Part shown: in pieces, positions 10,988 to 26,509 of the stretch
Position numbering within the stretch: the first letter of the stretch is position 1
Layout of the letters: each line of letters starts with the position of its first letter
Source: Sulfuritalea sp.
GTDB taxonomy: Bacteria > Pseudomonadota > Gammaproteobacteria > Burkholderiales > Rhodocyclaceae
Assembly (NCBI GenBank): GCA_022842325.1
Contig: JALHPU010000001.1
Coordinates: 1 to 64,000 of the forward strand
Direction: 5' to 3'
Length of the DNA stretch: 64,000 nt
Translations under genes and position numbers: made by a program
Notes under the pieces: model-generated
What the model saw: only the letters and a program-made list of their open reading frames with translations
Databases searched by the model: none
Told to the model about the DNA's origin: nothing

Positions 10988-10988
10988 C

Positions 10989-11294: not shown

Positions 11295-11301
11295 GGCTGA
11301 A

Positions 11302-11331
11302 AGTATAGTCCCATTTTGGGACACAGTACAA
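11302..11331 (-). promoter_or_regulatory. higBA promoter with palindromic operator in spacer
   Basis: On the minus strand, -35 TTGTAC (11331-11326) and -10 TATACT (11307-11302) are 18 bases apart. The spacer holds the inverted repeat GTCCCA-AAA-TGGGAC (11322-11308), a likely HigA binding site. Confidence 0.72.
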
Positions 11332-11398
11332 GACCGCCGGTTGAAGAAGATAACCACCAGCCAATCCTATTACTGGTGTAGGGGATGTTCCTGCATAG

Positions 11399-11425
11399 AG
11401 TCGGCGCTGACCACACGGCAATTAA
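11399..11425 (+). repeat. Family C repeat copy
   Basis: AGTCGGCGCTGACCACACGG followed by CAATTAA, between higB and vapC. The adjacent ACCG...CTGTCTCCGGTTT segment also resembles sequence near 10590, so the repeated unit may be longer here. Confidence 0.7.
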
Positions 11426-11477
11426 AAGCATGAAAACCGCGGTCTGTCTCCGGTTTTCGGATTGGCTTCATTGGCTT

Positions 11478-11915
11478 TCAACTTTCGCCGCTAATCTTTT
11501 GTGTTGGCACGATCACTGCCGGCGCCAAGCCCAGCTTCTTCGCACGCCTGGCAAACTTGCGGTCGTCGAACGACGCCATGCTGGCACAGGTCCGGTAGCT
11601 TGCGTGATGCAACGCGTCAGCCAGATCGATCCCCGCGTCGCAGTGCGACAGCGCCTGCTCCACCGTGACGCGGTCTTCGATGGTGACATGCGGCAACGCC
11701 AGCAGGTGCCGCAAAACAGTGGTTATTTCGTCCGGCGCAAAACCATAGTAGCCACGCAAGACCCACTCGAATTCGAGGATCACCGTCTTGCACACCATCA
11801 ACGGTCGACCGGACTCGATCAGTCGCCGTGCCGCCTCGTGCTGACGACCCGCTTCGGCATCCTGCTTGTCCTCGACGTAGTAGCGGGCGAGAACATTTGT
11901 GTCCAGGCCAATCAT
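11478..11915 (-). CDS. vapC: VapC-type PIN-domain ribonuclease toxin
   Basis: A 145-residue PIN-domain protein. The acidic metal-binding positions are visible: Asp in IGLDTNVLARYY, Glu in VILEFEWVL, Asp in GIDLADALH and Asp in SFDDRKFARRA. VapC toxins cleave specific tRNAs or rRNA. Its start overlaps the antitoxin stop by 4 bases (ATGA), the normal vapBC arrangement. Confidence 0.92.
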   Translation of the reverse strand: MIGLDTNVLARYYVEDKQDAEAGRQHEAARRLIESGRPLMVCKTVILEFEWVLRGYYGFAPDEITTVLRHLLALPHVTIEDRVTVEQALSHCDAGIDLADALHHASYRTCASMASFDDRKFARRAKKLGLAPAVIVPTQKISGES

Positions 11916-12145
11916 CGCTTGAGCAAGCTTGCCGGGTCGAAGTCCGCCGGCACGGTTGCGCGGCGACTTTTCAGCATGCCGAATCCGCTATCCGGCACAC
12001 CCGTAGGCGAGCTCTTGACGCGCATTTCGACATGATCATCGACCACAGCAAACTCGATCCGACTGCCCTGGCGAATACCCAGTTGCTGCCGAACTTCCTT
12101 CGGGATTGTGACCTGCCCCTTGCTCGTAACCGATGTGGCTTCCAT
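11912..12145 (-). CDS. vapB: AbrB-family VapB antitoxin
   Basis: A 77-residue swapped-hairpin AbrB/MazE-like protein. MEATSVTSKGQVTIPKEVR and GIRQGSRIEFAVVDD are the classic motif. The C-terminal tail (FGMLKSRRATVPADFDP) contains the residues that usually block VapC. The ATG at 12145 is chosen; Met codons at 12157 and 12199 are in frame, but the region upstream of 12145 holds a direct repeat that looks regulatory. Confidence 0.88.
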   Translation of the reverse strand: MEATSVTSKGQVTIPKEVRQQLGIRQGSRIEFAVVDDHVEMRVKSSPTGVPDSGFGMLKSRRATVPADFDPASLLKR

Positions 12146-12157
12146 GCCCGCCTCCAT

Positions 12158-12174
12158 GTAATACTTGGTAATAC
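12158..12174 (-). promoter_or_regulatory. Direct repeat upstream of vapBC
   Basis: Two GTAATAC copies separated by TTG lie 12 bases before the vapB start. They are AT-rich and may serve as a VapB operator or part of the -10 region. Confidence 0.4.
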
Positions 12175-12225
12175 TATCACTACAGGCACGTGGGAGCAAT
12201 GTCAGGCGAGAGCGAGCCTGGATCG

Positions 12226-12510
12226 CTACGCCGGAAATTTGCGGGCCGTGTGGATGACATTCAGGACAACGATCGCCTCGGGAAGCAGTTTTACGAAAAC
12301 AACATAGGGGAGCTTGTTGACGACGAGCTCGCGGGCATCCGGTACGCGGTCGCTTTTCCTGATCCGTTCCGGGAAGGGTGGCAGGCCTTCTATCTGCTCG
12401 ACGATCCGCCGTTCTATCGATCCGGCAATGCGCGGCCCGGCCTGGACGTAGTAGTAGGCGAGTATTTCCTCAAGGTCGTCGAGCGCCTCATCGGTCCAGA
12501 CGATCCTCAT
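12226..12510 (-). CDS. RelE/ParE-type toxin
   Basis: A 94-residue RelE/ParE superfamily toxin. It contains VWTDEALDDLEEILAYY, the amphipathic N-terminal helix typical of ParE, and RELVVNKLPYVVFV followed by VLNVIHTARKFP. It is likely a gyrase inhibitor (ParE-like) or mRNA interferase (RelE-like); the sequence does not decide. It follows the Phd-type antitoxin by 2 bases. Confidence 0.88.
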   Translation of the reverse strand: MRIVWTDEALDDLEEILAYYYVQAGPRIAGSIERRIVEQIEGLPPFPERIRKSDRVPDARELVVNKLPYVVFVKLLPEAIVVLNVIHTARKFPA

Positions 12511-12512
12511 GC

Positions 12513-12827
12513 CTATGCGGTTTTACGGGCGAGCCTCGCATCCAGACGCGCCTTCAGCGTAGCCATCGCGTCCGCGTGCTCGCGCAGGCCGGTCTCGCCG
12601 GAATCCACCCGCCGCACGGTCCCAGTGACTTTGCCGAACAGCCATTCGTCGTATCCGGGCTCCTTTTCCATGATGAGCTCCTGGATCAGCGTGCCGGCGG
12701 CGTCCTCGATCGAGATCATGATCCCTACCGGACGGTCGTTTTTCGTTACAACGACAGGTTCGCGCCTCGAGGCGTCAAGGAATTCGCCGAAGTGGTTCTT
12801 GGCCTCGCGGGCCGACATGACTTTCAT
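12513..12827 (-). CDS. Phd/YefM-type antitoxin
   Basis: A 104-residue protein beginning MKVMSAREAKNHFGEFLD, the conserved N-terminal DNA-binding Phd/YefM fold, followed by PVVVTKNDRPVGIMIS. The C-terminal part is charged and helical and should bind the toxin. The ATG at 12827 fits the domain; a longer frame to 12881 crosses the promoter region and is unlikely. Confidence 0.88.
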   Translation of the reverse strand: MKVMSAREAKNHFGEFLDASRREPVVVTKNDRPVGIMISIEDAAGTLIQELIMEKEPGYDEWLFGKVTGTVRRVDSGETGLREHADAMATLKARLDARLARKTA

Positions 12828-12861
12828 GGATGCATCCTTTTGGTAACGCGAATATGTGTCC

Positions 12862-12889
12862 ATTGTAGCTATTGTGAACACAATTTCAA
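12862..12889 (-). promoter_or_regulatory. Promoter with palindromic operator, Phd/ParE module
   Basis: On the minus strand, TTGAAA (12889-12884) and TACAAT (12867-12862) are 16 bases apart. The spacer contains a perfect inverted repeat ATTGTG-TT-CACAAT (12884-12871), a likely antitoxin operator. Confidence 0.72.
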
Positions 12890-12902
12890 GGATCGCTTAT
12901 CC

Positions 12903-13268
12903 TCACCCCACCGCGAATTCCTCCCGCGTCCTGCCCTTGGCCAGCTCCGCCGCCAGCCACTTGGGCACCCGGCCACGGCCGGACCAGGCATCACCGGTTG
13001 CGGGGTTGCGATACTTCGCCGCCACCGGCTTGCGCGGCTTCGCCACCTTGGCCTTGGTGCCCTTGGCCGCCTTCGCAGGTTTCGCCGCCTTGGGTTTGCG
13101 CCCCTTGGCCGCCCGCGCCTTGCCACCCAGATCGGCCAGCGTAATGCCATACATCGCCATCTTGGCCTTGATTTCGGCCAGCGCCGCGCCGATCTCCGCC
13201 TTGCGCGCCGCTTCCGCCTGGCGCATCAAGTCTTCCGCCTGCGATTTCAGTTCCGTGTAACTCGCCAT
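12903..13268 (-). CDS. H-NS-family nucleoid protein
   Basis: A 121-residue H-NS histone-like protein. Residues 1-60 are a coiled oligomerisation region (SYTELKSQAEDLMRQAEAA... AEIKAKMAMYGIT). The middle is an AKP/GRK-rich linker that resembles eukaryotic H1 tails. The C-terminal DNA-binding motif is KYRNPATGDAWSGRGRVPKWL (given here as its two halves, KYRNPATGDAW and SGRGRVPKWL). The ATG at 13268 follows GGAGG by 9 bases. It lies beside an AT-richer, probably acquired glycan cluster that H-NS proteins typically silence, but direct control is only inferred. Confidence 0.92.
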   Translation of the reverse strand: MASYTELKSQAEDLMRQAEAARKAEIGAALAEIKAKMAMYGITLADLGGKARAAKGRKPKAAKPAKAAKGTKAKVAKPRKPVAAKYRNPATGDAWSGRGRVPKWLAAELAKGRTREEFAVG

Positions 13269-13346
13269 TTTTATTTCCTCCAGAGGAATCTGCCCGCCCC
13301 ACTCGGCATCCATTGATTAGATCCGCACTTCGCCTTCGACCTTAAT

Positions 13347-14129
13347 CTAGTTCGCCTTATTACCAATTAAATAAATATCACTACAAACAGATGGGCGCAA
13401 TTGAAGGACCTGGTCAAACAATAACGTTCCGGCCCTCACCAGTGAATTCGGGTTTGCCAAACCAGCCCAGTTTCGCCCAATAATTCGTATATTTACCAAA
13501 CCCAAATCACGGGCGATGTATTGGAGATCATCGACATCTGGCTCACGTACGTGCCCGCGAAAAATATCTGATTCATACCAGTCATTCATTCCCGACCACT
13601 TTCCGTAACCAAACGGCACTGTCAGTCGCTTTCGCAAATTTACGCAGTTTGGCGCGCCGATGATAAACGTACCGCCGGGCCTAAGTACATCAATAATCTG
13701 CATAAAGAGCTTTTTCGGTGAACGATGCCAGTGCTCCATAGAATCAAATGACGAAACGACATCCAATGAGTCGGAACCAAATGGTAGAGATTCTCTCGTG
13801 ACGTCCAACGAATGCACCGAAAAACCGAAATCGATCGGCATACGATGTCGTGGTTCGTTGATATTTACCGCAAAGCCTTGGTCAGCAAAATCATCGACCA
13901 AATGGCAGTGAAGCCCATTTTTTGAACATACAGCCGATAGCGCTCCCCATCCTCCACCGATGTCGCACACTTGCCCACTACCAGAACAAGCGTCCAAAAT
14001 AAGCGCAGCGTGGAAAGCATAACGACGTGCTTCGCACGCGAGCAAGTATTCTGGATATCTTCCGGACCAATACTCCTTCATTACTGCAACAGCAATTCTT
14101 TCAATACACTTCGAATCTATCATCTTCAT
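13347..14129 (-). CDS. Class I SAM-dependent methyltransferase
   Basis: About 260 residues with a Rossmann methyltransferase core: VCDIGGGWGALSAVCS (motif I), then DVVSSFDSMEHW and FMQIIDVLRPGGTFIIGAPN (motifs II-III). The ATG at 14129 has AGGA seven bases upstream; the open frame extends further into wecB but without support. It is last in the glycan cluster and probably methylates a sugar or lipid-linked oligosaccharide. The substrate is unknown. Confidence 0.82.
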   Translation of the reverse strand: MKMIDSKCIERIAVAVMKEYWSGRYPEYLLACEARRYAFHAALILDACSGSGQVCDIGGGWGALSAVCSKNGLHCHLVDDFADQGFAVNINEPRHRMPIDFGFSVHSLDVTRESLPFGSDSLDVVSSFDSMEHWHRSPKKLFMQIIDVLRPGGTFIIGAPNCVNLRKRLTVPFGYGKWSGMNDWYESDIFRGHVREPDVDDLQYIARDLGLVNIRIIGRNWAGLANPNSLVRAGTLLFDQVLQLRPSVCSDIYLIGNKAN

Positions 14130-14166
14130 ATGTTTTCCTATCTGCTTGACGTCGCCACTAACTTCT

Positions 14167-15294
14167 TCACGAGCCCAGCAACCGCACCAACTCCGCCACA
14201 ATCCGCTCCGCCGCCCTGCCGTCCCATTTTTCCGGAATCCCGCCCTTCTTCCACTGCCCGGCCATCAAACGCTCCAGCGCCGGGCCAAGCTTCGCCGGAT
14301 CGGTACCGATCAGTTCATTTGTGCCCACCATCACCGTCTCTGGCCGCTCCGTGCTATCGCGTAACGTCAAACACGGCACACCCATCACCGTGGTTTCCTC
14401 GGTAATTCCGCCAGAATCGGTGATCACGCCCTTGGCATGCTTCACCAGATAATTGAATTCCAGGTAGCCCTGCGGATCAACAAAGTGAATCCCCGCACCC
14501 GCACCGGTAGGAGCGAGCATGCTCGCGCGCCCCCCCATAAGCTCCCGCAAATTCTTCGCCGTCCGCGGATGCACCGGAAACACCACCGGCAGCCCCCCTG
14601 TCCCCTCCGCTATCGCCTGCAACAAGCGCAACAACTGCTGTACCCCATCCACATTCCCCGGCCGGTGCAGCGTTACCACGAAATACCGCCCCGCCTCCAA
14701 ACCCAACTCATTCCAGAACTCCGGCGCCCGCAAACGCGGCAGCTGCTTCAACAGCGTATCGATCATCGTGTTACCGACGAAGAAAATCCTGTCATCGCCA
14801 ACACCGGCCCGGCGCAAGTTAGCGTTTGCCACTTCGCTGGTGGTAAAGAACCAGTTGGTAATCGAATCCGTCACCACGCGGTTGATCTCCTCCGGCATGG
14901 CCCAGTCGCCGGAACGAATGCCGCCTTCCACATGCGCCACCGGCACACCGCACTTGCGCGCGGCAATGGAACAGGCCATGGTCGAGGTGACATCGCCCAC
15001 CACCAGGCACAGGTCACTGCGCTGTTTCAGCAATACCTTCTCGTAGCGCACCATGATCGCCGCCGTCTGCTCCGCCTGGGTGCCCGAACCCACCTCGAGA
15101 TTGATATCCGGCTCAGGAATGCAGAGCTGTTCGATAAAGCTGCCGGACATCGCCCTGTCGTAATGCTGGCCGGTGTGGATCAGGCGATAGCGCAACGGGC
15201 CACCGCACGCTTCCGCCGCCCTCAGAGCATCGATGATCGGCGCGATCTTCATGAAGTTGGGGCGGGCGCCGGCGATGAGGTCGATGATCTTCAC
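14167..15294 (-). CDS. wecB: UDP-N-acetylglucosamine 2-epimerase (non-hydrolysing)
   Basis: A 375-residue WecB/MnaA-type epimerase interconverting UDP-GlcNAc and UDP-ManNAc. Diagnostic segments are GARPNFMKIAPII, TGQHYDRAMSG, VVGDVTSTMACSIAARK, HVEGGIRSGD, MPEEINRVVTDSI, FVGNTMIDTL, HRPGNVD, FPVHPRTAKNL and TDSGGITEET, all in the usual order. The start is GTG at 15294, overlapping the preceding methyltransferase stop (GTGA). Residues about 256-263 (RASMLAPTG region) are encoded by a family B palindrome (14507-14529) and look like an in-frame insertion between HPRTAK and IHFVDPQGYLEF. Confidence 0.93.
   Translation of the reverse strand: MKIIDLIAGARPNFMKIAPIIDALRAAEACGGPLRYRLIHTGQHYDRAMSGSFIEQLCIPEPDINLEVGSGTQAEQTAAIMVRYEKVLLKQRSDLCLVVGDVTSTMACSIAARKCGVPVAHVEGGIRSGDWAMPEEINRVVTDSITNWFFTTSEVANANLRRAGVGDDRIFFVGNTMIDTLLKQLPRLRAPEFWNELGLEAGRYFVVTLHRPGNVDGVQQLLRLLQAIAEGTGGLPVVFPVHPRTAKNLRELMGGRASMLAPTGAGAGIHFVDPQGYLEFNYLVKHAKGVITDSGGITEETTVMGVPCLTLRDSTERPETVMVGTNELIGTDPAKLGPALERLMAGQWKKGGIPEKWDGRAAERIVAELVRLLGS
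14507..14529. repeat. Family B-like palindrome inside wecB
   Basis: GTAGGAGCGAGC-AT-GCTCGCGCG lies in the wecB coding region. It matches the family B element except for the central bases and keeps the reading frame. Confidence 0.72.
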
Positions 15295-16043
15295 TGGCCC
15301 TCCTCGCTCGAAGCACTGCTGCTCCTGCCAAGCTGCTTACGCAAGCACCCGATCAACAAGATACGCAGCGGCGCAAAAACCTCATTCGAGTTCACCAATC
15401 GCTCGTAGGCAAGCCCAACCAGATAGGTCGGCCACATCATGCGCAAGTATTCCGGACGACCTTCAATGCGATCAAGGCGCTCCACTAGCAAACCCGAGTC
15501 CGCCGCAAGCCTCGCCACGTCAGCCAGGCAGTTAGCCCGGTAACGGGTGGGAAAGGTGTCCACCTCGGCCCTGCCACGCAATCGATTTACATACTGATGA
15601 AAACCATGTGGCGTTAGCCGCGCGATCGTAGGCATGTAGTGCCACTTGTTCGGGGTCTTGAATAGAAACACCCCACCCGGCTTTAGAACGCGCTCGACTT
15701 CCCGGAAGACCCGGAGCGGTTCATCCAGGTGTTCCAGCACGTTGTCTGAAAACACGACATCGAATCGGCCATCCTCGTAGGGAATCCCATCTGCATTGGC
15801 CACACGCCCCTCGTCAAGCATTGGATTACCGACCACCCGCGGGTCCAGATCAACTCCGCAAACAGATCTCGCAAGCCCTCGAAAATTCATCTGCTCGACG
15901 ATGCCGGCACCGGCACCCAAATCAAGTACGGTGGCGTCAGGCCGCAAATGCAACAGAATTCGCTCGCGGAAAAGTTGATCATCCCAGTTACGCATAAACT
16001 CGGGATAACAAGCGCGGTCGATCCTTGATACCAATGATGTCAT
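15291..16043 (-). CDS. Class I SAM-dependent methyltransferase
   Basis: About 250 residues. Motif I is TVLDLGAGAGIVEQM, followed by VCGVDLDPRVVGNP, FDVVFSDNVLEHLDEP and VLKPGGVFLFKTPNKWHY, a Methyltransf_11-like core with the histidine typical of glycan or quinone methylases. The ATG at 16043 is preceded by AGGAAG. Its stop overlaps the wecB start by 4 bases, so both are translated from one message. The substrate is unknown. Confidence 0.85.
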   Translation of the reverse strand: MTSLVSRIDRACYPEFMRNWDDQLFRERILLHLRPDATVLDLGAGAGIVEQMNFRGLARSVCGVDLDPRVVGNPMLDEGRVANADGIPYEDGRFDVVFSDNVLEHLDEPLRVFREVERVLKPGGVFLFKTPNKWHYMPTIARLTPHGFHQYVNRLRGRAEVDTFPTRYRANCLADVARLAADSGLLVERLDRIEGRPEYLRMMWPTYLVGLAYERLVNSNEVFAPLRILLIGCLRKQLGRSSSASSEEGQ

Positions 16044-16093
16044 TCCGCTTCCTCTATAGTGTCGATAGACGAATCGGGTGGCTGCCAACAATA

Positions 16094-16120
16094 AGTCGGC
16101 GCTGGCGACACGGCGATCAA
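16094..16120 (+). repeat. Family C repeat copy
   Basis: AGTCGGCGCTGGCGACACGG followed by CGATCAA, between the methyltransferase and the wecB relic. Confidence 0.75.
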
Positions 16121-16167
16121 ACAGCTCTGCCTCATTTCTTCGCCTCAATCAGCATGAAGAACCCGTG

Positions 16168-16716
16168 CCCCCATCGTGTTGCCAACGAAGAAGATCCGCT
16201 CCTCCGCTCCTCCGCCACCCCGGCCTACCGCAGGTTCGCGTTGGCCACTTCGCTGGTGGTGAAGAACCAGTTGCTGATCGAATCCGTCACCACGCGGTTG
16301 ATCTCTTCCGGCATGGTCCAGCCGCCCGGGCGGATGCCACCCTCCACGTGCGCTACCGGCACGCCGCACTTGCGCGCCGCGATGGAACAGGCCATGGTGG
16401 AAGTGACATCGCCCTCCACCAGGCACAAGTCGCTGCGCTGTTTCAGCAGCACCTTCTCATAGCGCACCATGATCGCCGCCGTCTGCCCGGCTTGGGTGCC
16501 CGAACCGACTTCAAGGTTGATATCCGGTTCCGGAATGCCGAGCTGCGCGAAGAAACTGCCGGACATCGCCTTGTCGTAATGGTGGCCGGTGTGGATTAGG
16601 CGGTAGCGCAGCGCACCGCCACGCCCTTCAGCCGCCTTCAACGCATCGATGATCGGCGCGATCTTCATAAAGTTGGGGCGGGCGCCGGCAATTAAGTCTA
16701 TTGTATTTATGCGCAT
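16168..16716 (-). pseudogene. Truncated, stop-interrupted copy of wecB
   Basis: From the ATG at 16716 about 163 codons match the intact wecB at roughly 90% (ARPNFMKIAPIIDALKAAEG, TGHHYDKAMSG, VEGDVTSTMACSIAARK). A TAG then interrupts after ANLR. A further 17 or so codons still resemble the intact gene, shifted by one base, and similarity ends after FFVGNTM near 16168. The catalytic second half is missing, so it is non-functional. It lies directly downstream of the CapK-like gene. Confidence 0.93.
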
Positions 16717-16755
16717 TTCGGCGGCGAGCTTATGTTAAACGCGTACTGCACTTTG

Positions 16756-18138
16756 TTAGGTGAGAAAAGAAATAACTGCCTTCATTTTCCCTGCTCCTGT
16801 ACGTTCGATTTCTGAAACATAATCGAAATTCACTTTCAACTTTGGGCTAATCCACTGCGCCACTCCGCTACGCAATATATTTTCCGTACTTGAAAGATAA
16901 CCATCTCGCCGTACAATCTTAATTGTTATCTCGCCAGGTTGCTTCTGTACTATTTGGCATTCACGTATATCGTGAGTATCTTTAAAGAGGTAGTCGAATC
17001 GCATGATTTTCCGCCCTTCAGGTGTCAAAACGTATTCATCACTCCTACCTTCTATCCTGATAATTTTTGCCGACTGCCTTCCACACTCGCATACATGAGT
17101 ATCCAAATCCCAAACAGCATTATCCCCTACATCATAACGGATGAATGGGAATTCCGGACTGGCAAATCCGGTACAGATGATTTTTCCCCTCGTATGCCCG
17201 TCGTCAATAATCTCTTGTTCAACACATTCGAGAATACCGAACTCGAAATCCTCATGATAAACCCCATGCTCACAACGTGAAGCATTGCCACAACCTTCTG
17301 AAAACCCATACTGATCACTAAGAACTGCGCCAGTAAATTCGAAAATATTCCGGCGCTGTTTATCAAGAGTATTTTCAGCGCCTGTGAATACGCATGATGG
17401 ACGATGCTTAAGTGTCAGCCCTTGATCAAGAGCCTGCGACGAAAGGCTATCAATAATAGAAGGATATCCAGAAAAGTACGCAAAAGGATGGTCGCCGAGG
17501 AATTTAACAAGATCTGAAATTTTTTCAGGTTGAATCTGCTGCATCGGGATCAGCGCCTGATTCAAAGGAAGATTCCATCGCCAGTACGGTGGTCTTCTTG
17601 TTGCAGGGGGTACAACTGGCTTCCCGGTAAAATTAGCGTGAAGCATATCAGGATGTATGCCGAACCTAGCTCGATGTCGCCACCAAACAGCCCATTGAAA
17701 GGGCACTTGATTTCGACCAAGGTAATACTGAAGGCTCGTACCGGTAGTCCCGCTGGTATGGCCATGAACAAGATGCTTTTCCGTGGCATTGTCGGCTATG
17801 AACTCGCGAAAGCGGGCGCGAATAATGTCTTTTGTGAGCAATGGGAGTTTGGGTAGATCCTCCTTTGACTGGACGTCACTTGGCGTGAGACCTAACTGTT
17901 TCATCGTGGTGCGGTAATACGGCACATGTTCGAATGCATGCCGTATTAGCATTATTAACTGTTCGCTTTGATATTCGTCAATCTGGTCTTTTGAATACCA
18001 TTCTGACAGCTTTAGTTGTACCAGTTTCTGCTGAAACTGTTTAGAAAATCGCAAACGGCGCAAAGTCAAACCGTAAAAAGAGCACGCTGCATTCTGCAAA
18101 AAAACTGGGAGAAGTGGATATAGCGGACCAGTAATCAT
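16756..18138 (-). CDS. CapK/PaaK-like adenylate-forming enzyme
   Basis: A 460-residue protein of the phenylacetate-CoA ligase / CapK family. The AMP-binding P-loop is HTSGTTGTSLQYY (about residues 125-137). SDQYGFSEGCGNASRCEHG is the family's A5-type region with Cys and His positions. TGFASPEFPFIRYDVGD and CECGRQSAKIIRIEGRSDEY follow; the last has the Cys-rich and RIxGR motif near the C-terminal domain. It should activate a carboxylate with ATP. In glycan clusters these proteins are linked to capsule synthesis, but the substrate is unknown. It ends a gene run larE-larB-larC-DUF362-this gene, starting 19 bases after the DUF362 stop. Confidence 0.85.
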   Translation of the reverse strand: MITGPLYPLLPVFLQNAACSFYGLTLRRLRFSKQFQQKLVQLKLSEWYSKDQIDEYQSEQLIMLIRHAFEHVPYYRTTMKQLGLTPSDVQSKEDLPKLPLLTKDIIRARFREFIADNATEKHLVHGHTSGTTGTSLQYYLGRNQVPFQWAVWWRHRARFGIHPDMLHANFTGKPVVPPATRRPPYWRWNLPLNQALIPMQQIQPEKISDLVKFLGDHPFAYFSGYPSIIDSLSSQALDQGLTLKHRPSCVFTGAENTLDKQRRNIFEFTGAVLSDQYGFSEGCGNASRCEHGVYHEDFEFGILECVEQEIIDDGHTRGKIICTGFASPEFPFIRYDVGDNAVWDLDTHVCECGRQSAKIIRIEGRSDEYVLTPEGRKIMRFDYLFKDTHDIRECQIVQKQPGEITIKIVRRDGYLSSTENILRSGVAQWISPKLKVNFDYVSEIERTGAGKMKAVISFLT

Positions 18139-18157
18139 TTCACAACGCTTCCAGAAA

Positions 18158-19675
18158 TCATTTTTCTATATGGCCTACCCACCCGAAGTGGGGTTTGAAG
18201 CACAACTGAGACGGCATAGTCGTCTTTACTATTGGTCCGGATAGCGCGGAATCATTACTCACAATATAAACATCCGCCAAGCTTCCGCGAATTATTGGAA
18301 AGGTCTTACATAAAAAAGACTGACGAATTATTGGAATTTTATAGGGATCAAAGCCCATAAGAACTGCACCAACCGCATCAACAGCGGCGGGATTTACTCC
18401 GAAGCAAATTAATCCAGCCGACTTTGGCGAAGGATTAAGCGGTCCAGATCCTTCTCCCGCAATAATGCCATCGATTAGGGAGTAATGTCGCCGTACATTT
18501 TCCCCGAGTGTCCCATCATTTATTCCGTACAAGGCGATCTTATTCAGATCCAAACACATTCGCCATACAGTGTCATTCCCCCACCAGTTCCCGCTTCTGA
18601 CAATATTTTCCCCGCCACCAAAGAGTTTTTCGCCTAACTTGCGTGCCAACATATGAATGAGCGGCCCGATAACGGGCACACGCAGCGAGAGTTTCCTAAA
18701 AACTGCAACAAGGTTTCGCTCTGCACCGGACTTAAAAGCAACTACGGGGCGCTCATCGCCGCCCTGTTCTGGTTTGCCCTCAGTATGATGGGGCAACCAG
18801 TTCTTGTCGCCGTTAATTCCGACAAGGTTTTTTAAGGAAGCCGTCACCCCCGCTTTTTTATGTGTCTTAAGCTTAGGGAGGCTAAATATTACATCCGCAT
18901 TAACAGCGACTCCGGCGATCAAATATTCGTGGCGACCATCGGTGTGGTGGTAATTCACCTCATCAGAGTCATAGTCGGCTCCGTAGTAGTGCCCCCCACC
19001 TGCATGGGTTAAAAATTCACTGCACTCCTTCAGATCAAATGCAACGTAACCAAATGGATCCCCATCGCGAGGCCTTCTCGCTACAACGACTCCTTTACGC
19101 GATTCCCACTCTTCTTTTCGTAGATCGAACACTTTGAAGTCGTAACCAACCGATGCATAGAACGCTGCTAGTTCCGGCAGGCCAGTCAGTTCACTTATCT
19201 TTTCAAATGATGAGTCAGTTTGCGGACCGTCGGCGACAATAACAGTACCTGTTCCGCTTAACGCCATGAATACGTAATCCGCAACCGCGCGAATAATACT
19301 TCCATGGGTTATGACGTACTGCCAACCGTTCGGGTCCGTTGGGTGGGACTCTTTTACAAAATTGGGTTTAAGCAGAACCGTTTCACCCGGGCGAATCAGT
19401 TCTTTTAACGGATTCCATTGAGGCGTGCCATACCGATCTTTATCAAGCCCAGCCAACCGAAAACACTCTCGCACTGCCGCATAAACATGGTTACTTTCTG
19501 ACAGATGTGGCATATCAGCACATTCGGGATAGACCTCTGCAGGATGAAAGGGGGCCACCGCCGGATACTGGGCGTGCGCCAAGTGGAATACAGCAACAGC
19601 AAGCGAATCCATAGCTGAGTGCATTTCCTTTTCATCCAGTTTGTTAGGAGCCATGTGACTGGCGAACTCAGCCAT
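18158..19675 (-). CDS. DUF362-family protein, candidate nickel-pincer enzyme
   Basis: About 505 residues, a DUF362 protein without the ferredoxin-type Cys clusters many members have. Family segments are VLLKPNFVKESHPTD, GTGTVIVADGPQTD, ADVIFSLPKLKTH, AGVTASLKNLVGINGDK followed by LPHH, and NPSPKSAGLICFGVNPAAVDAVGA. The start at 19675 overlaps larC by 8 bases; an alternative is 19654. The motif H-KKAGVTASL-K (His about 272, Lys about 282) with His about 296/297 has spacing like the His174, Lys184, His200 set that binds the nickel-pincer nucleotide in Lactobacillus LarA. The surrounding residues (A-G-x-[ST]) also resemble what I recall of LarA. A role in racemising or epimerising a hydroxy group is inference; no activity of DUF362 proteins is established to my knowledge. 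Confidence 0.72.
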   Translation of the reverse strand: MAEFASHMAPNKLDEKEMHSAMDSLAVAVFHLAHAQYPAVAPFHPAEVYPECADMPHLSESNHVYAAVRECFRLAGLDKDRYGTPQWNPLKELIRPGETVLLKPNFVKESHPTDPNGWQYVITHGSIIRAVADYVFMALSGTGTVIVADGPQTDSSFEKISELTGLPELAAFYASVGYDFKVFDLRKEEWESRKGVVVARRPRDGDPFGYVAFDLKECSEFLTHAGGGHYYGADYDSDEVNYHHTDGRHEYLIAGVAVNADVIFSLPKLKTHKKAGVTASLKNLVGINGDKNWLPHHTEGKPEQGGDERPVVAFKSGAERNLVAVFRKLSLRVPVIGPLIHMLARKLGEKLFGGGENIVRSGNWWGNDTVWRMCLDLNKIALYGINDGTLGENVRRHYSLIDGIIAGEGSGPLNPSPKSAGLICFGVNPAAVDAVGAVLMGFDPYKIPIIRQSFLCKTFPIIRGSLADVYIVSNDSALSGPIVKTTMPSQLCFKPHFGWVGHIEK

Positions 19676-20489
19676 CGTGGGTGTGGTCAGAGTTGCCGTG
19701 GCTCTGGAAAGTCGCACCGCCATTGGTAAAACTAGTTCCCCGGAATCTTCCAAGGGAGTGCTCAGCGCCAAGGCCAAACACTGCCCCATTTGGCAAAGAC
19801 TCGAAAATCTTCCCGCCGTACACCCGAACGATTCTGTCAAGGCGAATGCTTGGCCAATAGCCAAAAGTCGCCTCGAGCGTCTTAAGCAGAGCAATCGCTG
19901 TCGGCGTCACCGTTTCCCCCTCGGGGGGAACACCATATATCGGGATACCAACCAACAGTTCCTGCACTGCAGGTGCTGGCGACATCAGCAGCCCATGGGC
20001 ACAACGGATGGTACCGTCACAAACCGGAAGAGGACTGCAGAGAAGGCGGACAGGGTGTAACTTGTCGAACAAACTAGCCGTCAAGCAGATGTCTAGAATG
20101 CTGTCGAGTGCACCAATCTCATGAAAGATCACATCCTCCGTGGGAATTCCATGTATTCGTCCTTCGACAAGTCCCAAAAGATTAAAAGAGCTTTCAGCAG
20201 TCAACTTGGCACCGGATGTCATGGCGCTCTTGGCGATGACGGTCCGAATATCCTTCAGTGATCGATGTGAGTGTTCATGCGGCAAAGTAACCTGCAAACG
20301 CAGGCCATTGATCCCCGCAACAGAATGCTCAACCAGAGCAACAGAACCGTTCAATGCTGCAATACCTATCGACTCAACCATCGACTGCAATTGCTCATTC
20401 TGAAGTTCAGCCAATGCTGCCAAGCCCGCCACAAACATATCACCGCTCAATCCTGATGGCGTTCGAATAACGACCAAACGTTCATTCAT
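19668..20489 (-). CDS. larC: LarC-like nickel-pincer cofactor nickel insertase (N-terminal part only)
   Basis: A 273-residue protein with LarC hallmarks: SGLSGDMFVAGLAAL at the N-terminus, LPHEHSHRSLKDIRTVI as the His-rich linker plus helix, VEGRIHGIPTEDVIFHEIGALDSI, and GVPPEGETVTPTAIALL. LarC installs nickel in the pyridinium bisthiocarboxylate mononucleotide. Full-length LarC is about 390-420 residues; here the C-terminal (LarC2, CTP-binding) domain is absent and no continuation is visible in another frame. The tail is His/Asp-rich (HGNSDHTHDG). The start overlaps larB by 8 bases and the stop overlaps the DUF362 start by 8, indicating tight coupling. Confidence 0.86.
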   Translation of the reverse strand: MNERLVVIRTPSGLSGDMFVAGLAALAELQNEQLQSMVESIGIAALNGSVALVEHSVAGINGLRLQVTLPHEHSHRSLKDIRTVIAKSAMTSGAKLTAESSFNLLGLVEGRIHGIPTEDVIFHEIGALDSILDICLTASLFDKLHPVRLLCSPLPVCDGTIRCAHGLLMSPAPAVQELLVGIPIYGVPPEGETVTPTAIALLKTLEATFGYWPSIRLDRIVRVYGGKIFESLPNGAVFGLGAEHSLGRFRGTSFTNGGATFQSHGNSDHTHDG

Positions 20490-21150
20490 TGGTCTGCTTC
20501 CAGTTCTTTCCGATGATCATCCTGAAGGCCGCGCATGCAGCCCCATAACCGTTATTAATATTAGTGACCACCATCCCTTGACTGCAACTCGCAAGCATTG
20601 CATTCAAAGCAGTTCCTCCCTGCGCAGCAACACCATAACCAGTTGAGACAGGCACACCGATTACCGGGATTGCCACCAAACCCGCAAGTACAGTCGGCAT
20701 GGCGCCGTCCATTCCGGCAATGGCAATTGCAACGTCGCAACTGGAAATACGCTCTATGCGATCCAGCAAACGCCAGAGACCGGCGACGCCAACATCTACC
20801 ATGACCACAGACGAAAGGCCCAAAAACTCAAGTGTCCGCGCCGCTTCGAGAGCAACTCCATTATCGGAAGTACCGGCGGCGACCACCGCAACTTCGCCTT
20901 TGACTGGCGGCCTCTTACCATGCAGAAAGCCGGTCCTGGAAACAGGTTCGTAATCAATAGACTTCTTGAGTTCGACCGGCAAGCCATCTAGCTGACCCAA
21001 GGACATTCGCGTAAGCAGCACCGGGTTGTCGACGTGCTCAGCGAGTTGGGCTAGCAGATGAACGAGTGCCGCCCCATCTTTACCTTCGCAAAGCACTGCC
21101 TCCGGCATGCCGATCCGGGCAGTGCGCCCAAAGTCAAAGATCGAAGTCAA
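20482..21150 (-). CDS. larB: LarB-type nickel-pincer cofactor biosynthesis protein
   Basis: A 222-residue LarB protein. The C-terminal half is PurE-like: VAVVAAGTSDNGVALEA, VVMVDVGVAGLWRLL, IAIAGMDGAMPTVLAGLV, IPVIGVPVSTGYGVA, and NINNGYGAACAAF. LarB carboxylates and hydrolyses nicotinic acid adenine dinucleotide to pyridinium-3,5-biscarboxylic acid mononucleotide, the precursor on which LarE acts. Somewhat short, lacking most of the N-terminal extension of some homologues. It lies 41 bases after larE and overlaps larC. Confidence 0.92.
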   Translation of the reverse strand: MTSIFDFGRTARIGMPEAVLCEGKDGAALVHLLAQLAEHVDNPVLLTRMSLGQLDGLPVELKKSIDYEPVSRTGFLHGKRPPVKGEVAVVAAGTSDNGVALEAARTLEFLGLSSVVMVDVGVAGLWRLLDRIERISSCDVAIAIAGMDGAMPTVLAGLVAIPVIGVPVSTGYGVAAQGGTALNAMLASCSQGMVVTNINNGYGAACAAFRMIIGKNWKQTNE

Positions 21151-21191
21151 GATTCACTTGTCTTTCTGTCCATTGCCTGGTTCATGCTAAA

Positions 21192-22007
21192 TCAGATCAA
21201 GAATGCGCGGCCGGACTTGTAGGGCTGCTCATCGAGGCATACAGAAGCGATGTCAGGGAATGCTCGACCGACTTCAGTACGTAGCTCATCCAAGACCGAA
21301 ATGTCGATTTTGGCATAGTCGTGGGAAAGAACTTCAACCAGCATGTCGTCGTTACGCATACGGCACCGGACAATGTCTATTCCGGTACGCCGCCGGACCA
21401 AATTCTCGCCCAATTCAATCGCTCGCAAGCGAGAAGCATTAACGGTCGTTCCCGTATATAAGCGGCTCGCCAGACAGGGTGATGCAGGCAATTCGGAAAA
21501 AGGCAGATTTAAATCCCGGGCCATGGCACGAATATGGGCCTTACCCATGCCCGCCTCAATGAACGGATGACGAACACCAAATTCCTTCGCCGCCTCCAAT
21601 CCGGGGCGGTACTCCTTAAGGTCATCCAAGTTCGCCCCGCTTAGCAAAGTCAACGAACGTTGAGCAGGCAGTTCGTCTGCAATCGCACGTAGCGCCGCGT
21701 AGAGGTGTGATTTGCAATAGTAACATCTATTTACCGGATTTTCCAGGTACCGGGGGTCGGTAAACTCTCCAGACGTCACCAGATGCAGCCGCCAGCCCTC
21801 CTGTGCTGCCATAGAATTTACTCGAGTGGTGCCCTCCAGTGGCACAGCCGGGCTCGTTGCGTGTGCGACAAAAAATCTTTCGGGGTCAATTCGACAAGCA
21901 ACCATCGAAAGCAACAAGCTATCAATTCCGCCACTACAAGCAATGATTGCCGAATCAAGCGACGAAAGAACATCACGCAATTTAAAAGTGGGCGTTCCCG
22001 TTTTCAT
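21192..22007 (-). CDS. larE: LarE-type ATP-dependent sulfur transferase
   Basis: A 271-residue PP-loop pyrophosphatase with AIIACSGGIDSLLL as the ATP-binding loop. LarE adenylates the biscarboxylate mononucleotide and inserts sulfur. The cysteine of SPCLASRLY corresponds to the sacrificial Cys of L. plantarum LarE. A CYYC pair in NPVNRCYYCKSHLY gives three cysteines in total, the arrangement seen in LarE proteins that carry a [4Fe-4S] cluster and need not sacrifice a protein sulfur. It is first in the run larE-larB-larC-DUF362-capK. No obvious promoter was picked out; the asnB relic lies upstream. Confidence 0.92.
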   Translation of the reverse strand: MKTGTPTFKLRDVLSSLDSAIIACSGGIDSLLLSMVACRIDPERFFVAHATSPAVPLEGTTRVNSMAAQEGWRLHLVTSGEFTDPRYLENPVNRCYYCKSHLYAALRAIADELPAQRSLTLLSGANLDDLKEYRPGLEAAKEFGVRHPFIEAGMGKAHIRAMARDLNLPFSELPASPCLASRLYTGTTVNASRLRAIELGENLVRRRTGIDIVRCRMRNDDMLVEVLSHDYAKIDISVLDELRTEVGRAFPDIASVCLDEQPYKSGRAFLI

Positions 22008-22134
22008 TAGATCTTTGTGAATTTCATTGAGATAGCGAATTAGCTACGAGTTACAGACGAACGACACCAACCGTTGCGCCGCGCCTGAATCCCGACAGAT
22101 GGATATGATGCCTTAATCGGTGGGTAGCGGGCTG

Positions 22135-22365
22135 ACACCAACTCTGCCATAGCTTGCAGCATTTGTAGATTGCCTCATTGAAAGAAATAGTGGAAGTACA
22201 AACCGCATTTGACATTGGCTGATGCCCAAAGGGCGAGAAGGCAATAATCGGCAACCTCATGTGGCCAAGGCTCATCTGCCGGCACTATCGAAGGATTCAC
22301 CCGGTATCGGTCGGGCCGCAATGATTCATGGTGCGTAAGGCGCCGTTAATGGCTGCACCGTCCTT
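22135..22365 (-). pseudogene. Decayed N-terminal fragment of an asparagine synthase gene
   Basis: The minus-strand reading gives NHCGPTDTG, two stops, then GHMRLPIIAFSPFGHQPM and ISFNEAIYKC. This parallels HRGPDDSG, GHRRLAILDLSPAGHQPM and IVFNGEIYNY of the intact asnB at 24562-26436. Only about 70 codons of the glutaminase domain remain and they carry stop codons. The rest of the 22008-22381 gap contains no other recognisable gene. Confidence 0.85.
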
Positions 22366-22381
22366 CGTGCCGACAAAACTG

Positions 22382-23566
22382 CTATGTCCCGCATGGCGGC
22401 TTCCTTTGTTGCCTTACAGTAGAAACCAAGAACCCGAAGGTCTCATACGCGCAGCGCTCCCATGAATATTGGCTTGCGCGTGCATGGCTCGCTTGTGCCA
22501 AGTCAGCTCGCAATTGTGGAGACCCAATTAACACCCGCAAGGCGCGGGATATGTCGTCGGGTTTCTCCGGGTCAAAAAACACACCCGCTTCACCCAATAC
22601 CTCCCTCATTGGACCGCGACTGGAACAGGCAATCGGCAAACCCGCAGCCATGGTTTCCAACAGGATGTTCGGCATATTTTCGCAACTGGACGCAAACAGG
22701 CCCAAATCCGCCTGCGCGTACTTTTCATGTAGCGTATCAAAAGCGATAGCACCGTGGTAATGGACCCAATGTCGTACTGGATCCAAGCGGGCTATAGTTT
22801 CATTGAGACGCCGTAATGCAGGCGGATAGGCCGGGCCCACCAAGTCCAACACGATCGGAAAACCTTGCTCTCGCAAGCCAGCGATAGCCTCCACTACATG
22901 CCATTGGTGTTTGTACTGATCAATTATTGATACATAGAGCACGCGATACGGCCGTGCGTCATCATAGTCAGCGATCGAGCGCTGCAGCTTTGGTGCCAGA
23001 TTGAAGCGCTGATTGAATCCATGGGGAATAATGCAGATCCGACCGCAGAGACTTCCCGTAATGTGCACGATGAAATCCTGTGCGTACTCTGTTAAGAAAA
23101 TCACACCATCAGCTTTTTGAAACGCGCGCGACTGTGTCAAACGCAACAACAGCAGTCTAAGCGTCATCAGCGTCCAACCGTAGCGCTTCAATTCACATAT
23201 ATCAAACGGCAGCATATTTCTGCTCATGGTAACTACGGGATGGAAGCGGGCAGCATAACTACCGCCAGGAACAAACAACACCGAGCAACCCTCATCACGC
23301 GCCGCTTGCGCCAAGCAAAAGCGCTGCCAAAGCGCGCGTCGCAGCAAGCCCTTGTTAAGTTCAGCTGGCGTTCGCTTCTCAAGCCAAGGCCGATCATCCA
23401 GTATCTTCAAAGTAGCTGAACTGCCCCACACCACAATACGTTCAACACCGTGATCCAATGGTTGCACCACTCTCAGCAACTCAGACAGATGTGTTATCCC
23501 GCCGCCATTGAGCAAATTGGCGGCATCAATTCCTAGTGTCACCAATTCAGAACGAGGAGACTGCAT
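22382..23566 (-). CDS. GT4-family glycosyltransferase
   Basis: About 394 residues. The N-terminus LGIDAANLLNGGGITHLSEL is typical of GT-B transferases, and the donor half has RVLYVSIIDQYKHQWHVVEA, LDLVGPAYPP, ADLGLFASSCENMPNILLETMAAGLPIACS and REVLGEAGVFFDPE. These are GT4 signatures with the Glu-x7-Glu nucleotide-sugar site. It is an EPS sugar transferase at the cytoplasmic membrane face. The start at 23566 overlaps the preceding methyltransferase gene by 20 bases; 64 more upstream codons are open but are antisense-like in composition and unlikely. Confidence 0.86.
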   Translation of the reverse strand: MQSPRSELVTLGIDAANLLNGGGITHLSELLRVVQPLDHGVERIVVWGSSATLKILDDRPWLEKRTPAELNKGLLRRALWQRFCLAQAARDEGCSVLFVPGGSYAARFHPVVTMSRNMLPFDICELKRYGWTLMTLRLLLLRLTQSRAFQKADGVIFLTEYAQDFIVHITGSLCGRICIIPHGFNQRFNLAPKLQRSIADYDDARPYRVLYVSIIDQYKHQWHVVEAIAGLREQGFPIVLDLVGPAYPPALRRLNETIARLDPVRHWVHYHGAIAFDTLHEKYAQADLGLFASSCENMPNILLETMAAGLPIACSSRGPMREVLGEAGVFFDPEKPDDISRALRVLIGSPQLRADLAQASHARASQYSWERCAYETFGFLVSTVRQQRKPPCGT

Positions 23567-24551
23567 TAGCCGGCTTCCTTCCCCGAGCAACCAAATGCCC
23601 TGCTCTGAGCAATTCAATGTCTTGGAAGCCAGCCTGTTCAAACCATAAGCGGGCGGTCGCCACAGTTTGAGGTTGGTCATACCTGGGCGAGAGCCAGTCG
23701 AAGGTGTCGAGCAAGGCCCATTCCCGGTGCTGACCTTCATTGAGTGGGAGGATGCCATGATAGTTGGCGACCGGTACTAGGCGCTTTAGTAACCTTCCAG
23801 CTAGAGGAATGCTCCCCAATGCCTGGCTCATGGTAAGCATCGCTGGCACCAACCGTTTCAGTAACGCAAATAGCTCGGGCTTGGCCATACGCCGCGTAAG
23901 CGGACGAAGCCAATACTTGGGCAGCAGGTTACTTTTGAGAGATTTCTCGTAGTAATCCACGCAAAGCCCACCCCCTTCCGCAACCATTGGCGGGAGGGAT
24001 GCAAAGGCGCGGGCCACGTCGGGGGTATGCTGCAAAACTCCAAGCGAATATATAAAAGCAAATGTTTCTCTCGCAAAGGGTAATGCATAGATATCGCCCT
24101 GCACCACGTACAGGTTGGGATGATGCTTCAAGCTGGCATAACAGGCGTCTACAGCGCTGGAATAGTCCAATGCCAACACTTTCGCGCCACTGTTGAGCGC
24201 CACCTCGGCAAAGCGACCAGCGCCACAGCCTGCATCCAGTAGCCATTGCCCGGCGATTTCCTCAGGCCGCCATCCAGTCGCTTTCCAGAATCGACTTGAG
24301 GAAATCAAATGACCTGAGTGGCTGTCGAGCTGTGTCTTTCGGAACGTGTTCCATTGCATGCCAAAGTTTTCTGCATAGTTCGAACGCGATACAAACCGCG
24401 GAATAAAATTCTCAATTGGATAGCGATGATCTCTGCGCTCGGTGACCAAAAAACCCGAGCGAACTCGTCCATCAATATACTGCGCGCCGTCAAGCACGAG
24501 TCGCTGCCCAGTCGCTGGGCAGCGAAGAATATCGACAAGCTCGACTTGCAT
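23547..24551 (-). CDS. SAM methyltransferase with Trm112-like N-terminal segment
   Basis: About 334 residues. The first 60 resemble the Trm112/YcaR zinc-free fold (VDILRCPATGQRLVLD). The methyltransferase core has WLLDAGCGAGRFAEVAL, VLALDYSSAVDACY, NLYVVQGDIYALPF and FAFIYSLGVLQHTPD. It likely methylates a sugar or sugar nucleotide in the glycan. It starts 10 bases after the asnB stop, so it is cotranscribed with asnB. Confidence 0.86.
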   Translation of the reverse strand: MQVELVDILRCPATGQRLVLDGAQYIDGRVRSGFLVTERRDHRYPIENFIPRFVSRSNYAENFGMQWNTFRKTQLDSHSGHLISSSRFWKATGWRPEEIAGQWLLDAGCGAGRFAEVALNSGAKVLALDYSSAVDACYASLKHHPNLYVVQGDIYALPFARETFAFIYSLGVLQHTPDVARAFASLPPMVAEGGGLCVDYYEKSLKSNLLPKYWLRPLTRRMAKPELFALLKRLVPAMLTMSQALGSIPLAGRLLKRLVPVANYHGILPLNEGQHREWALLDTFDWLSPRYDQPQTVATARLWFEQAGFQDIELLRAGHLVARGRKPANAVSSF

Positions 24552-24561
24552 CGCTCCGGCC

Positions 24562-26436
24562 CTATAAGGAAACTTGATATTCGCGGCGCCACAACTCGAA
24601 CATGACCAGGCCAAAAAGGCGCTCGCCGTTACTTCGACCGACGTCTTGTCCATGTAACAGTCTTTTCACCATTGCCCGGTCGAAGATGCACGCCCCGTCG
24701 AGCAATACATCATGGAAAAAATCGCGCCACCGACCTCCTTTGAGCCATTCAGCCAGCGGTATCGAAAACCCTTGCTTACGTCGGCGATCAAACTCTGGGG
24801 GCAGCAATCGCACAGCCAACTTTTTCAAAAGTATCTTGCGTTGATGTGATGTCGCCTTTAGCTTCGTAGGAACCCGGCCAAAAGCGAATTCAATGATTCT
24901 GTAATCAAGTAGTGGGGCACGTAGCTCGAGGGAATTGATCATACTTGCGCGATCTATCTTTACCAGAATGTCTTCAGGCATGTAGTTCTCAAAATCCATT
25001 CGCGTAATACGCTGCAAAAGATCAACATTATGTGGGAAGCGAGCGGAAAAAATCTTTTCCGCAACCAAAGACAAAGAATGATCGGTTGAGAGCCCATCCA
25101 ATAGTCCCCTTCGTCCTTCAACATCAAAGTACGAGGCAATCAATGGCAATTCATGGTCAAGATCCGTTCCCATCGCCTGCAACCAATTGCGCCCCTTAAA
25201 CCCGATAGGCAAGTTGCCACCCAATCCTCGTGCTAATGCGTTGCGCAGTGGCTGCGGCACCCAGCCAATTGCTTGTCGTGTCCACATCAATCGATTGTAA
25301 TGAGCGTAACCACCAAAGAGCTCATCGCCCCCATCCCCACCTAAGGCAACCGTACAATGCTGACGCACCAGATTGCTAACAAGATAGGTGGGAATTATTG
25401 ACGAATCAATTATCGGCTCGTCATACTGGCGCGCCAAGACCGCTAATATATCGGGATCTACACTATTAGCAACAAGCTCTAAATGTTCGGTACCGAAATA
25501 ACGGGAAATCAGAAGCGCATGATTTGACTCATCGTAATTAGGAAAATCCGAAAAACTCACGGTGAAAGTCTTCACTTTTTGCGAAGCGCGCACCGCCATT
25601 GCAGTGATCAGGCTGGAATCGACACCACCACTCAGCAGCACGCCGACAGGTACATCCGCAATCATTTGCCTACGGACAGCGTCCTCAAGCAATACCTCTA
25701 GTTCATCGAGCAAGACCCTCTCACCCGCGTCACTTGGCGACAACCCCGGCGGGGCTGGCAGTTGCCAGTAACGCCATACCTGCGCGGTTCCATCTTTCAA
25801 ATTGAATAGCAATGCGTGGGCTGGTGATAACTTATTCAGCCCCAGCATAATATTTCGATTACCCGGCACGTAGCCTATCGCTAGATAACAATCTAGCGCC
25901 TCATGATCGACGCGTCTAACAAACTCAGGGTCGGCCATCAAGCCCTTGAGTTCCGACGCAAAATGCAGCTTACCGTCAGAAATCGAATAGAAGAGTGGCT
26001 TCTCTCCTGCGCGATCACGGGCAAGAAGTAGCACCTGGCGTGATGCATCATGCAGGGCAAAGGCAAACATGCCGTTTAGGCGTGATAGACAATCTATGCC
26101 CCACTGATCGTAAGCCGCCAGGATCACTTCGGTATCGGTACGGGAGTGGAATATGTGGCCTTTGGCTAGCAGTTCATCCTTCAGGTCTTGGTAGTTGTAT
26201 ATCTCGCCGTTGAATACGATGGTCAATGTTCCGGTAGCATCCGTCATGGGCTGATGTCCTGCAGGCGAGAGGTCCAAGATTGCCAGCCGCCGGTGTCCGA
26301 ATCCTACTTGACCATCCTTCGACCACCATATGCCGGAATCGTCCGGGCCTCTATGGGCCATAGCATCACGCCCGACGATCAGCCAATCACGATTCGCGAT
26401 TGGCAAACAAGATGCAGCACCAATAATCCCACACAT
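24562..26436 (-). CDS. asnB: Glutamine-hydrolysing asparagine synthase-like amidotransferase
   Basis: A 624-residue Asn synthase. Cys2 of MCGIIGAAS is the N-terminal glutaminase nucleophile. HRGPDDSGIW, GHRRLAILDLSPAGHQP and NGEIYNYQDL complete the glutaminase domain. LLSGGVDSSLITAMA is the ATP PP-loop of the synthetase domain, with SFSDFPNYDESNHA and GGDGGDELFGGY after it. In polysaccharide clusters AsnB-like proteins often amidate uronic acids. Because the window contains TviB (uronate formation), this role is plausible but inferred. It is preceded by a gap of 73 bases and followed at 10 bases by the methyltransferase. Confidence 0.93.
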   Translation of the reverse strand: MCGIIGAASCLPIANRDWLIVGRDAMAHRGPDDSGIWWSKDGQVGFGHRRLAILDLSPAGHQPMTDATGTLTIVFNGEIYNYQDLKDELLAKGHIFHSRTDTEVILAAYDQWGIDCLSRLNGMFAFALHDASRQVLLLARDRAGEKPLFYSISDGKLHFASELKGLMADPEFVRRVDHEALDCYLAIGYVPGNRNIMLGLNKLSPAHALLFNLKDGTAQVWRYWQLPAPPGLSPSDAGERVLLDELEVLLEDAVRRQMIADVPVGVLLSGGVDSSLITAMAVRASQKVKTFTVSFSDFPNYDESNHALLISRYFGTEHLELVANSVDPDILAVLARQYDEPIIDSSIIPTYLVSNLVRQHCTVALGGDGGDELFGGYAHYNRLMWTRQAIGWVPQPLRNALARGLGGNLPIGFKGRNWLQAMGTDLDHELPLIASYFDVEGRRGLLDGLSTDHSLSLVAEKIFSARFPHNVDLLQRITRMDFENYMPEDILVKIDRASMINSLELRAPLLDYRIIEFAFGRVPTKLKATSHQRKILLKKLAVRLLPPEFDRRRKQGFSIPLAEWLKGGRWRDFFHDVLLDGACIFDRAMVKRLLHGQDVGRSNGERLFGLVMFELWRREYQVSL

Positions 26437-26509
26437 TATTTTCTTTTCTCACTTAACAGGCTGGCAAAGGTCTTCGCCTGTAAATTTCTTCGCTTAAATT
26501 AGGCGAAGC

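Follow-up and report, generated by a model that had tools for sequence, protein, structure and literature searches.

The first 64,000 nucleotides of contig JALHPU010000001.1 from the Sulfuritalea sp. assembly GCA_022842325.1 (this whole stretch is called the window below) carry a four-gene operon in the order larE, larB, larC (N-terminal part only) and, as the last gene, DUF362. Our data suggest, with a probability of roughly three in four, that larE, larB and the N-terminal part of larC make the nickel-pincer nucleotide (NPN) and that the DUF362 protein, with a LarA-like core, is its user. Most likely, this protein is an NPN-tethering enzyme of the LarA fold, which acts here in exopolysaccharide synthesis. 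The direct support comes from i) the operon, ii) a source genome with no LarA match and no other DUF362 protein, iii) a predicted fold and aligned residues and iv) the co-occurrence of DUF362 with the NPN pathway.

LarE, LarB and LarC constitute the known pathway to NPN. In the window, all on the minus strand, larE (21192..22007; TIGR00268, 230 bits at a cut-off of 150) precedes larB (20482..21150; NF033503, 235 bits, cut-off 175), the TTG start of which is uncertain, and a larC of 273 amino acids (aa; 19668..20489), which is over the TIGR00299 cut-off and matches PF01969 at positions 3-228 of 375. The DUF362 gene follows at 18158..19675, with overlaps of 8 nucleotides both between larB and larC and between larC and DUF362. 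Its product comprises 505 aa from the ATG at 19675, or 498 aa from a second in-frame ATG at 19654, and reaches 93 bits against PF04015 (gathering cut-off 24). Among Pfam families it matches DUF362 only, with no Lar_N match at E up to 1 and no 4Fe-4S match. The genome (4.89 Mb in 121 contigs, 99.94% complete, 5.15% contamination) contains exactly one DUF362 protein and one LarC, and no Lar_N match indicative of LarA was found in it. The operon with larE, larB and larC gives independent support for a LarA-like reading of the DUF362 protein. With 0.513, its G+C content lies below that of the surrounding exopolysaccharide cluster (0.544) and of the window (0.594), which is consistent with horizontal gain. 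Viral contigs (single-protein scan) and plasmids (tblastn) gave no match to the DUF362 protein, and a single-query search with it hit no more than two of the 279 phylum genomes, its own among them.

An earlier sequence-only reading had drawn attention to a LarA-like arrangement of His and Lys in this protein, and its numbering proved exact for the 505-aa form, where residues 272, 282, 296 and 297 read H, K, H and H. They belong to the motif K-T-H272-x9-K282-x13-H296-H297 (18785..18868, minus strand; KTHKKAGVTASLKNLVGINGDKNWLPHH at 18868-18785), in which the alignments point to a candidate acid/base His, a candidate cofactor-tethering Lys and a candidate nickel-ligand His. Counting in the PDB sequence of Lactiplantibacillus plantarum LarA (6c1w) places H108, H174, K184 and H200 at the stated positions, and the spacing from His174 to Lys184 is identical to the His-x9-Lys of the window protein, as had been proposed. 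We take Lys184 to be the cofactor tether and His200 to be the nickel ligand of LarA. The third His stands at +14/+15 from the Lys, again as proposed for the window protein, but the offset differs from the +16 of LarA.

Relatives for comparison came from a scan of genome contigs, which returned at least 585 stretches from at least 268 relatives. The best 80 (L058-L137) comprise 64 loci of a long subfamily that includes the window protein (L058-L121), three fragments (L122-L124) and 13 canonical DUF362s (L125-L137). The long subfamily spans many phyla, with best-segment identities of up to 58% (Chloroflexi L058, Zixibacteria L109). Although one H-x9-K per 500 residues proves nothing, the invariance of these residues across the DUF362 alignments shows that they are not random: His and Lys are kept in 65/65 aligned long-subfamily proteins (window plus 64 loci), in all 29 short DUF362s examined from another class (29 of 30 loci; L033 left out), which also have the His at +14, and in 11/11 canonical members examined. 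Position +14 reads H in 59, R in five and a gap in one of the 65 long-subfamily rows. Canonical members place the third His at varied distances (+15 in 8/11, other distances in 3/11), and it is therefore not universal in DUF362. Of the family-wide KTH...KN...H pattern suggested earlier, the H-x9-K part is retained throughout the examined classes and the third His is not.

The comparison with LarA structures placed the LarA family at the head of the PDB matches, albeit at low TM-scores. This supports the earlier reading: the failure to align with LarA that would have spoken against it did not show up. An AlphaFold2 model of the 498-aa version, built from 55 sequences (the window and 54 of the 64 long-subfamily loci), had a mean confidence (pLDDT) of 91.1 and a predicted TM-score (pTM) of 0.91. 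When it was compared by Foldseek with 350,542 PDB chains, ranks 1-16 among the best 50 of 624 matches went to LarA-family entries (E 1.4e-5 to 5.6e-3; 11-16% identity), headed by 9q3k, and the next match had an E of 0.099; 4nar was counted as LarA family because of its LarA profile match (E 1.7e-23). For a canonical DUF362 (L137; 11 sequences, pLDDT 84.8), the LarA family occupied every rank from 1 to 19 (E 1.2e-6 to 3.0e-5). Profile-profile comparison of canonical DUF362 with LarA gave a probability of 92% (E 6.7e-7), with the KTH and the K aligned on the His174 and Lys184 columns, and the long and canonical DUF362 profiles match each other at E 4.9e-45. The long-subfamily profile aligns with LarA in the same His/Lys/His register despite a weak score (6.4%), and in this alignment the His at +14/+15 falls on LarA His200 in spite of an offset other than +16. 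Against the PDB, the best 60 of 125 rows for the canonical profile were of ferredoxin type, matched in the 4Fe-4S part.

Besides the protein itself, its distribution also points to the NPN pathway. Among the 279 phylum genomes, DUF362 was detected in 43, LarC in 48 and LarA in four; LarC is present in 39/43 genomes with DUF362 vs 9/236 without, and LarA in none of the 43. Nearly all DUF362 carriers of this sample belong to a set of families outside the class of the source genome, perhaps Magnetococcia. None of the four genomes with DUF362 and without LarC (G153, G161, G165, G181) exceeds 76% completeness. As for the nine with LarC and without DUF362, four carry LarA, two have neither LarA nor DUF362 (G039, G167) and three are members of families in which DUF362 is otherwise present (G157, G173, G177). 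Besides the source, seven genomes have DUF362 and LarC on one contig; in six of them larC, larB, larE and DUF362 all lie within 5.3-6.4 kb, and in G006 DUF362 and LarC are ~370 kb apart. The DUF362 proteins of these families have ~340 aa, and a twin-arginine-like RR motif was seen in 24 of 29 examined, in the N-terminus as delimited by script. For the DUF362 proteins with such a signal in larBCE-carrying genomes (L024-L053, L199-L204), export in a folded and cofactor-loaded state is possible.

Among the 80 genomes drawn by DUF362 homology, 61 (37/50 + 24/30) have LarC: 47/64 with the long subfamily, 12/13 with canonical DUF362 and 2/3 with fragments. A published survey gives, in the portion consulted, ~9% of genomes as having larBCE with larA and ~15% as having larBCE without it (PMC11796402); against this 24% background, 61/80 corresponds to a binomial p of 1e-22, in a draw that is non-random. 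LarA is over the cut-off in 31 of the set of 50. The 19 others include 11 with LarC, and the remaining eight are three gut metagenome-assembled genomes and five Verrucomicrobiales. No LarC match was obtained in G340, G344, G346, G351 and G353, where LarA is present and LarB is over the cut-off in 3/5, nor in G392, G394, G395, G397, G402 and G412; G378 and G039 have LarC and no LarB over the cut-off. Control genomes showed DUF362 together with LarA (Thermotoga maritima, Methanosarcina acetivorans), DUF362 and LarC in the absence of LarA (Haloferax volcanii and Synechococcus elongatus, the one cyanobacterium covered), or LarC with neither (Corynebacterium glutamicum, Methanocaldococcus jannaschii). 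H. volcanii is suspected of having an NPN enzyme, according to the portion of PMC8305020 consulted. By extension, DUF362 is a candidate NPN user in organisms with larBCE and without larA.

Selecting relatives by larB instead, LarB was over the cut-off in 6/61, the own genome counted, and ~20 kb around larB was taken from the other five. In 5/5 a gene over the Lar_N cut-off of Pfam lies near larB (L022 211.6, L019 184.9, L021 114.6, L020 33.0 and L018 27.4 bits). The window hence carries DUF362 where these relatives have LarA or an intermediate. The in-house LarA profiles were seeded with open reading frames that they later matched beside larB, and the naming of those frames rests on Pfam. The L020 protein is over both cut-offs (Lar_N 33.0 bits; DUF362 27.2 bits, cut-off 24), and DUF362 stays below the cut-off in L018 (19.5 bits) and L021 (21.5 bits). 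We observed that the proteins L018:6494-7816 and L020:12498-13835 (440-446 aa) adjoin larCEB and have a longer His-to-Lys spacing; by their sequences, they are a possible link between the Lar_N and DUF362 families. The LarA-family protein of L021 has Asn at the His174 position.

A variant of the motif bears on the role of His296. The five Arg at +14 belong to L098, L100, L101, L102 and L105, i.e. the Verrucomicrobiales genomes G377, G379, G380, G381 and G384, in which genome scans found neither LarC nor LarA. LarB is over the cut-off in all five (partial in G380), and larE adjoins larB in the corresponding stretches L186-L190. These stretches around larE-larB, two of which are short contigs, gave no larC match. 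Exosortase and DUF3485 genes are also part of the larE-larB cluster in L187, after which comes a CapK/PaaK-like gene. The related genome G370 (L091) has, in this order, an exosortase, a DUF3485 protein, larE-larB-larC, an acyltransferase and DUF362. In a quick tree of 60 rows (L078, L099, L116, L118 and L120 left out), the five Arg rows form one clade within a 12-row Verrucomicrobia clade, the other seven members of which read LPHH. Six changes of the variant fall on columns that are at least 85% conserved among the other 60 rows, and three of them lie in the loop of His296 (Asn288->Thr, Lys291->Thr and His296->Arg in the 505-aa numbering). A joint loss of the nickel inserter larC and of the ligand would be expected if His296 were the nickel ligand. 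Since larE and larB are kept, larC was not found and His296, Asn288 and Lys291 are changed, we tentatively propose, as a possibility of rather low odds, that DUF362 is the missing non-LarA pincer-nucleotide family and that one Verrucomicrobiales clade has switched to a pincer nucleotide without nickel or with another metal.

We infer cofactor binding, a Lys tether, a nickel ligand and hydride chemistry for the DUF362 protein of the window. Lys282 would tether the pincer nucleotide and His296 (or His297) would bind nickel, with His272 as the single putative acid/base at the substrate. A hydride would pass from an alcohol carbon of a building block of the exopolysaccharide to the pyridinium C4 and back again, and the outcome would be either epimerization or hidden redox chemistry. 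The substrate class is our guess.

Several observations weigh against an NPN-using DUF362 enzyme. Regarding the fold, the TM-scores to the LarA family are low for both the window model (0.22-0.37; root-mean-square deviation (rmsd) 8.2-14.9) and the canonical L137 model (0.30-0.44; rmsd 4.5-8.1). The long-subfamily profile reaches LarA with a probability of only 6.4% (E 0.0057), and the catalytic His108 of LarA has no DUF362 counterpart, its GTHR region being aligned to ADGPQTDSS in the profile alignment. PDB searches with the window protein (phmmer) and the long-subfamily profile yielded no LarA or other plausible relative, so that the link to LarA rests on the fold and profile-profile comparisons. 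Regarding the distribution, the association of DUF362 with LarC in the 279 genomes (Fisher p 2.5e-34) is not corrected for phylogeny; 26 of the 37 LarC-positive genomes in the set of 50 also have LarA (11 do not), and LarA could explain their LarC; and the five Arg rows, as a single clade, represent one evolutionary event. Finally, larC lacks the C-terminal third of the family profile, so that the operon has no complete LarC. For the missing part, only chance-level tblastn matches were found within the window, and the genome scan matched only PF01969 3-228. However, another short LarC (250 aa) adjoins a canonical LarA in L022 (G331), so that LarC may be able to function with the N-terminal part alone.

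Exceptions to the co-occurrence leave some room for a DUF362 that keeps the LarA-like fold and the KTH...K with another ligand, the lar genes of the operon serving a different enzyme. Three related gut genomes (G354, G360, G363) have an intact DUF362 motif, no LarC match and neither LarB nor LarA over the cut-off, and the control Bacteroides ihuae has DUF362 without LarC. In addition, lar adjacency is rare: lar genes as regular neighbours of the long subfamily had to be rejected, as in-house profiles detected them beside DUF362 in only 1/80 loci (L091, Verrucomicrobiaceae), many of which lie on short contigs. We nevertheless regard this explanation as unlikely. The source genome has no LarA match for the lar genes to serve, separate lineages (the window, G370 with L091 and six contigs of another group) put DUF362 beside larBCE, and the change of His296 coincides with missing larC in 5/5 genomes. 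The earlier idea that the whole family are nickel-pincer candidates keeps its basis in the fold and profile likeness to LarA, but meets these exceptions without lar genes.

The short LarC, with DUF362 as the next gene, could also mean that DUF362 is a helper in NPN maturation, e.g. a substitute for the LarC C-terminus or a cofactor holder, rather than the using enzyme, and no substrate is known for DUF362. This seems improbable to us, because the neighbour of the short LarC in L022 is a canonical LarA, blastp showed nothing significantly similar to the window DUF362 in the 20 kb taken there, and 79/80 DUF362 loci have no lar gene found nearby and polysaccharide genes as recurring neighbours; furthermore, the LarA-like fold with its conserved Lys suits a cofactor-holding enzyme. 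Chance as the source of both the H-x9-K spacing and the operon is hardly credible: such a spacing is easily found in a single protein, but not together with 65/65 invariance, the canonical profile match at E 6.7e-7, LarA at PDB ranks 1-16 and 1-19, and overlapping genes.

For an NPN-using DUF362 enzyme, the surroundings indicate where it may act. The operon is embedded in an exopolysaccharide cluster (3497..34104, minus strand; Pfam) with glycosyltransferases, a heparinase II/III, a two-domain oxidoreductase (zinc alcohol dehydrogenase (Zn-ADH)/GFO-IDH-MocA), a UDP-GlcNAc 2-epimerase, asparagine synthase, methyltransferases and a Wzx-like flippase. Directly downstream of DUF362 lies the gene of a CapK/PaaK-like adenylate-forming protein (16756..18138, minus strand), which has NCBIfam PaaK-type matches below the cut-off and no Pfam match. 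A protein of 454-466 aa follows larB in L187 and L188, with an AMP-binding match below the cut-off (scanned in L187). In a comparison of neighbours across 69 sources (64 DUF362 loci, the window, L187, L188, L189 and L191), the Zn-ADH/GFO-IDH-MocA oxidoreductase recurs in 14 and asparagine synthase in nine, the window included in both cases, and a heparinase II/III protein in nine. These recurring neighbours are consistent with polysaccharide clusters. By eye, the UDP-GlcNAc 2-epimerase (14167-15294) has a shortened copy-like frame at 16225-16716, possibly the remnant of a gene duplication. An open reading frame of 3753 aa (35194-46455, minus strand) adjoins the cluster.

The closest known system is the LarA superfamily (DUF2088; Lar_N PF09861, LarA_C PF21113), which shares with the window protein the predicted fold, the His-x9-Lys and following His in register, the larB/larC/larE neighbourhood and proteins that match both Pfam families. 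In contrast, the window protein has subfamily insertions, a Lys-to-His distance of +14 instead of +16, no His108 and an exopolysaccharide context. The portion of PMC11770544 consulted describes His108 and His174 of LarA as the acid/base pair, places DUF362 and LarA in the common Pfam clan CL0471 and, owing to this clan, uses DUF362 as an outgroup in nickel-pincer work. The LarA homologues with a single catalytic His (9q3j, 9q3k), as presented in the portion of PMC12611868 consulted, likewise miss one of the two catalytic His of LarA but are DUF2088 members. DUF362 keeps His174, the position that is Asn in the LarA-family protein of L021, and is without His108. Ferredoxin-fused canonical DUF362s share the Pfam family and the KTH...KN core, whereas the window subfamily has ~500 aa with large insertions, and its window member has no 4Fe-4S match.

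In the titles and abstract beginnings of the open-access literature, we did not find DUF362 proposed as an NPN enzyme. According to the portion of PMC11796402 consulted, LarBCE of one cyanobacterium were shown to produce functional NPN, no user of it is known from most cyanobacteria, and this user is expected to be unlike LarA in both sequence and fold. For LarA, the paper reports a mass adduct of about +450 Da. The DUF362 candidate differs from LarA in sequence but, by prediction, not in fold. If DUF362 proteins bind NPN, a large family without an assigned function would become a second family of nickel-pincer enzymes, and one of its lines would be tied to the surface polysaccharides of bacteria.

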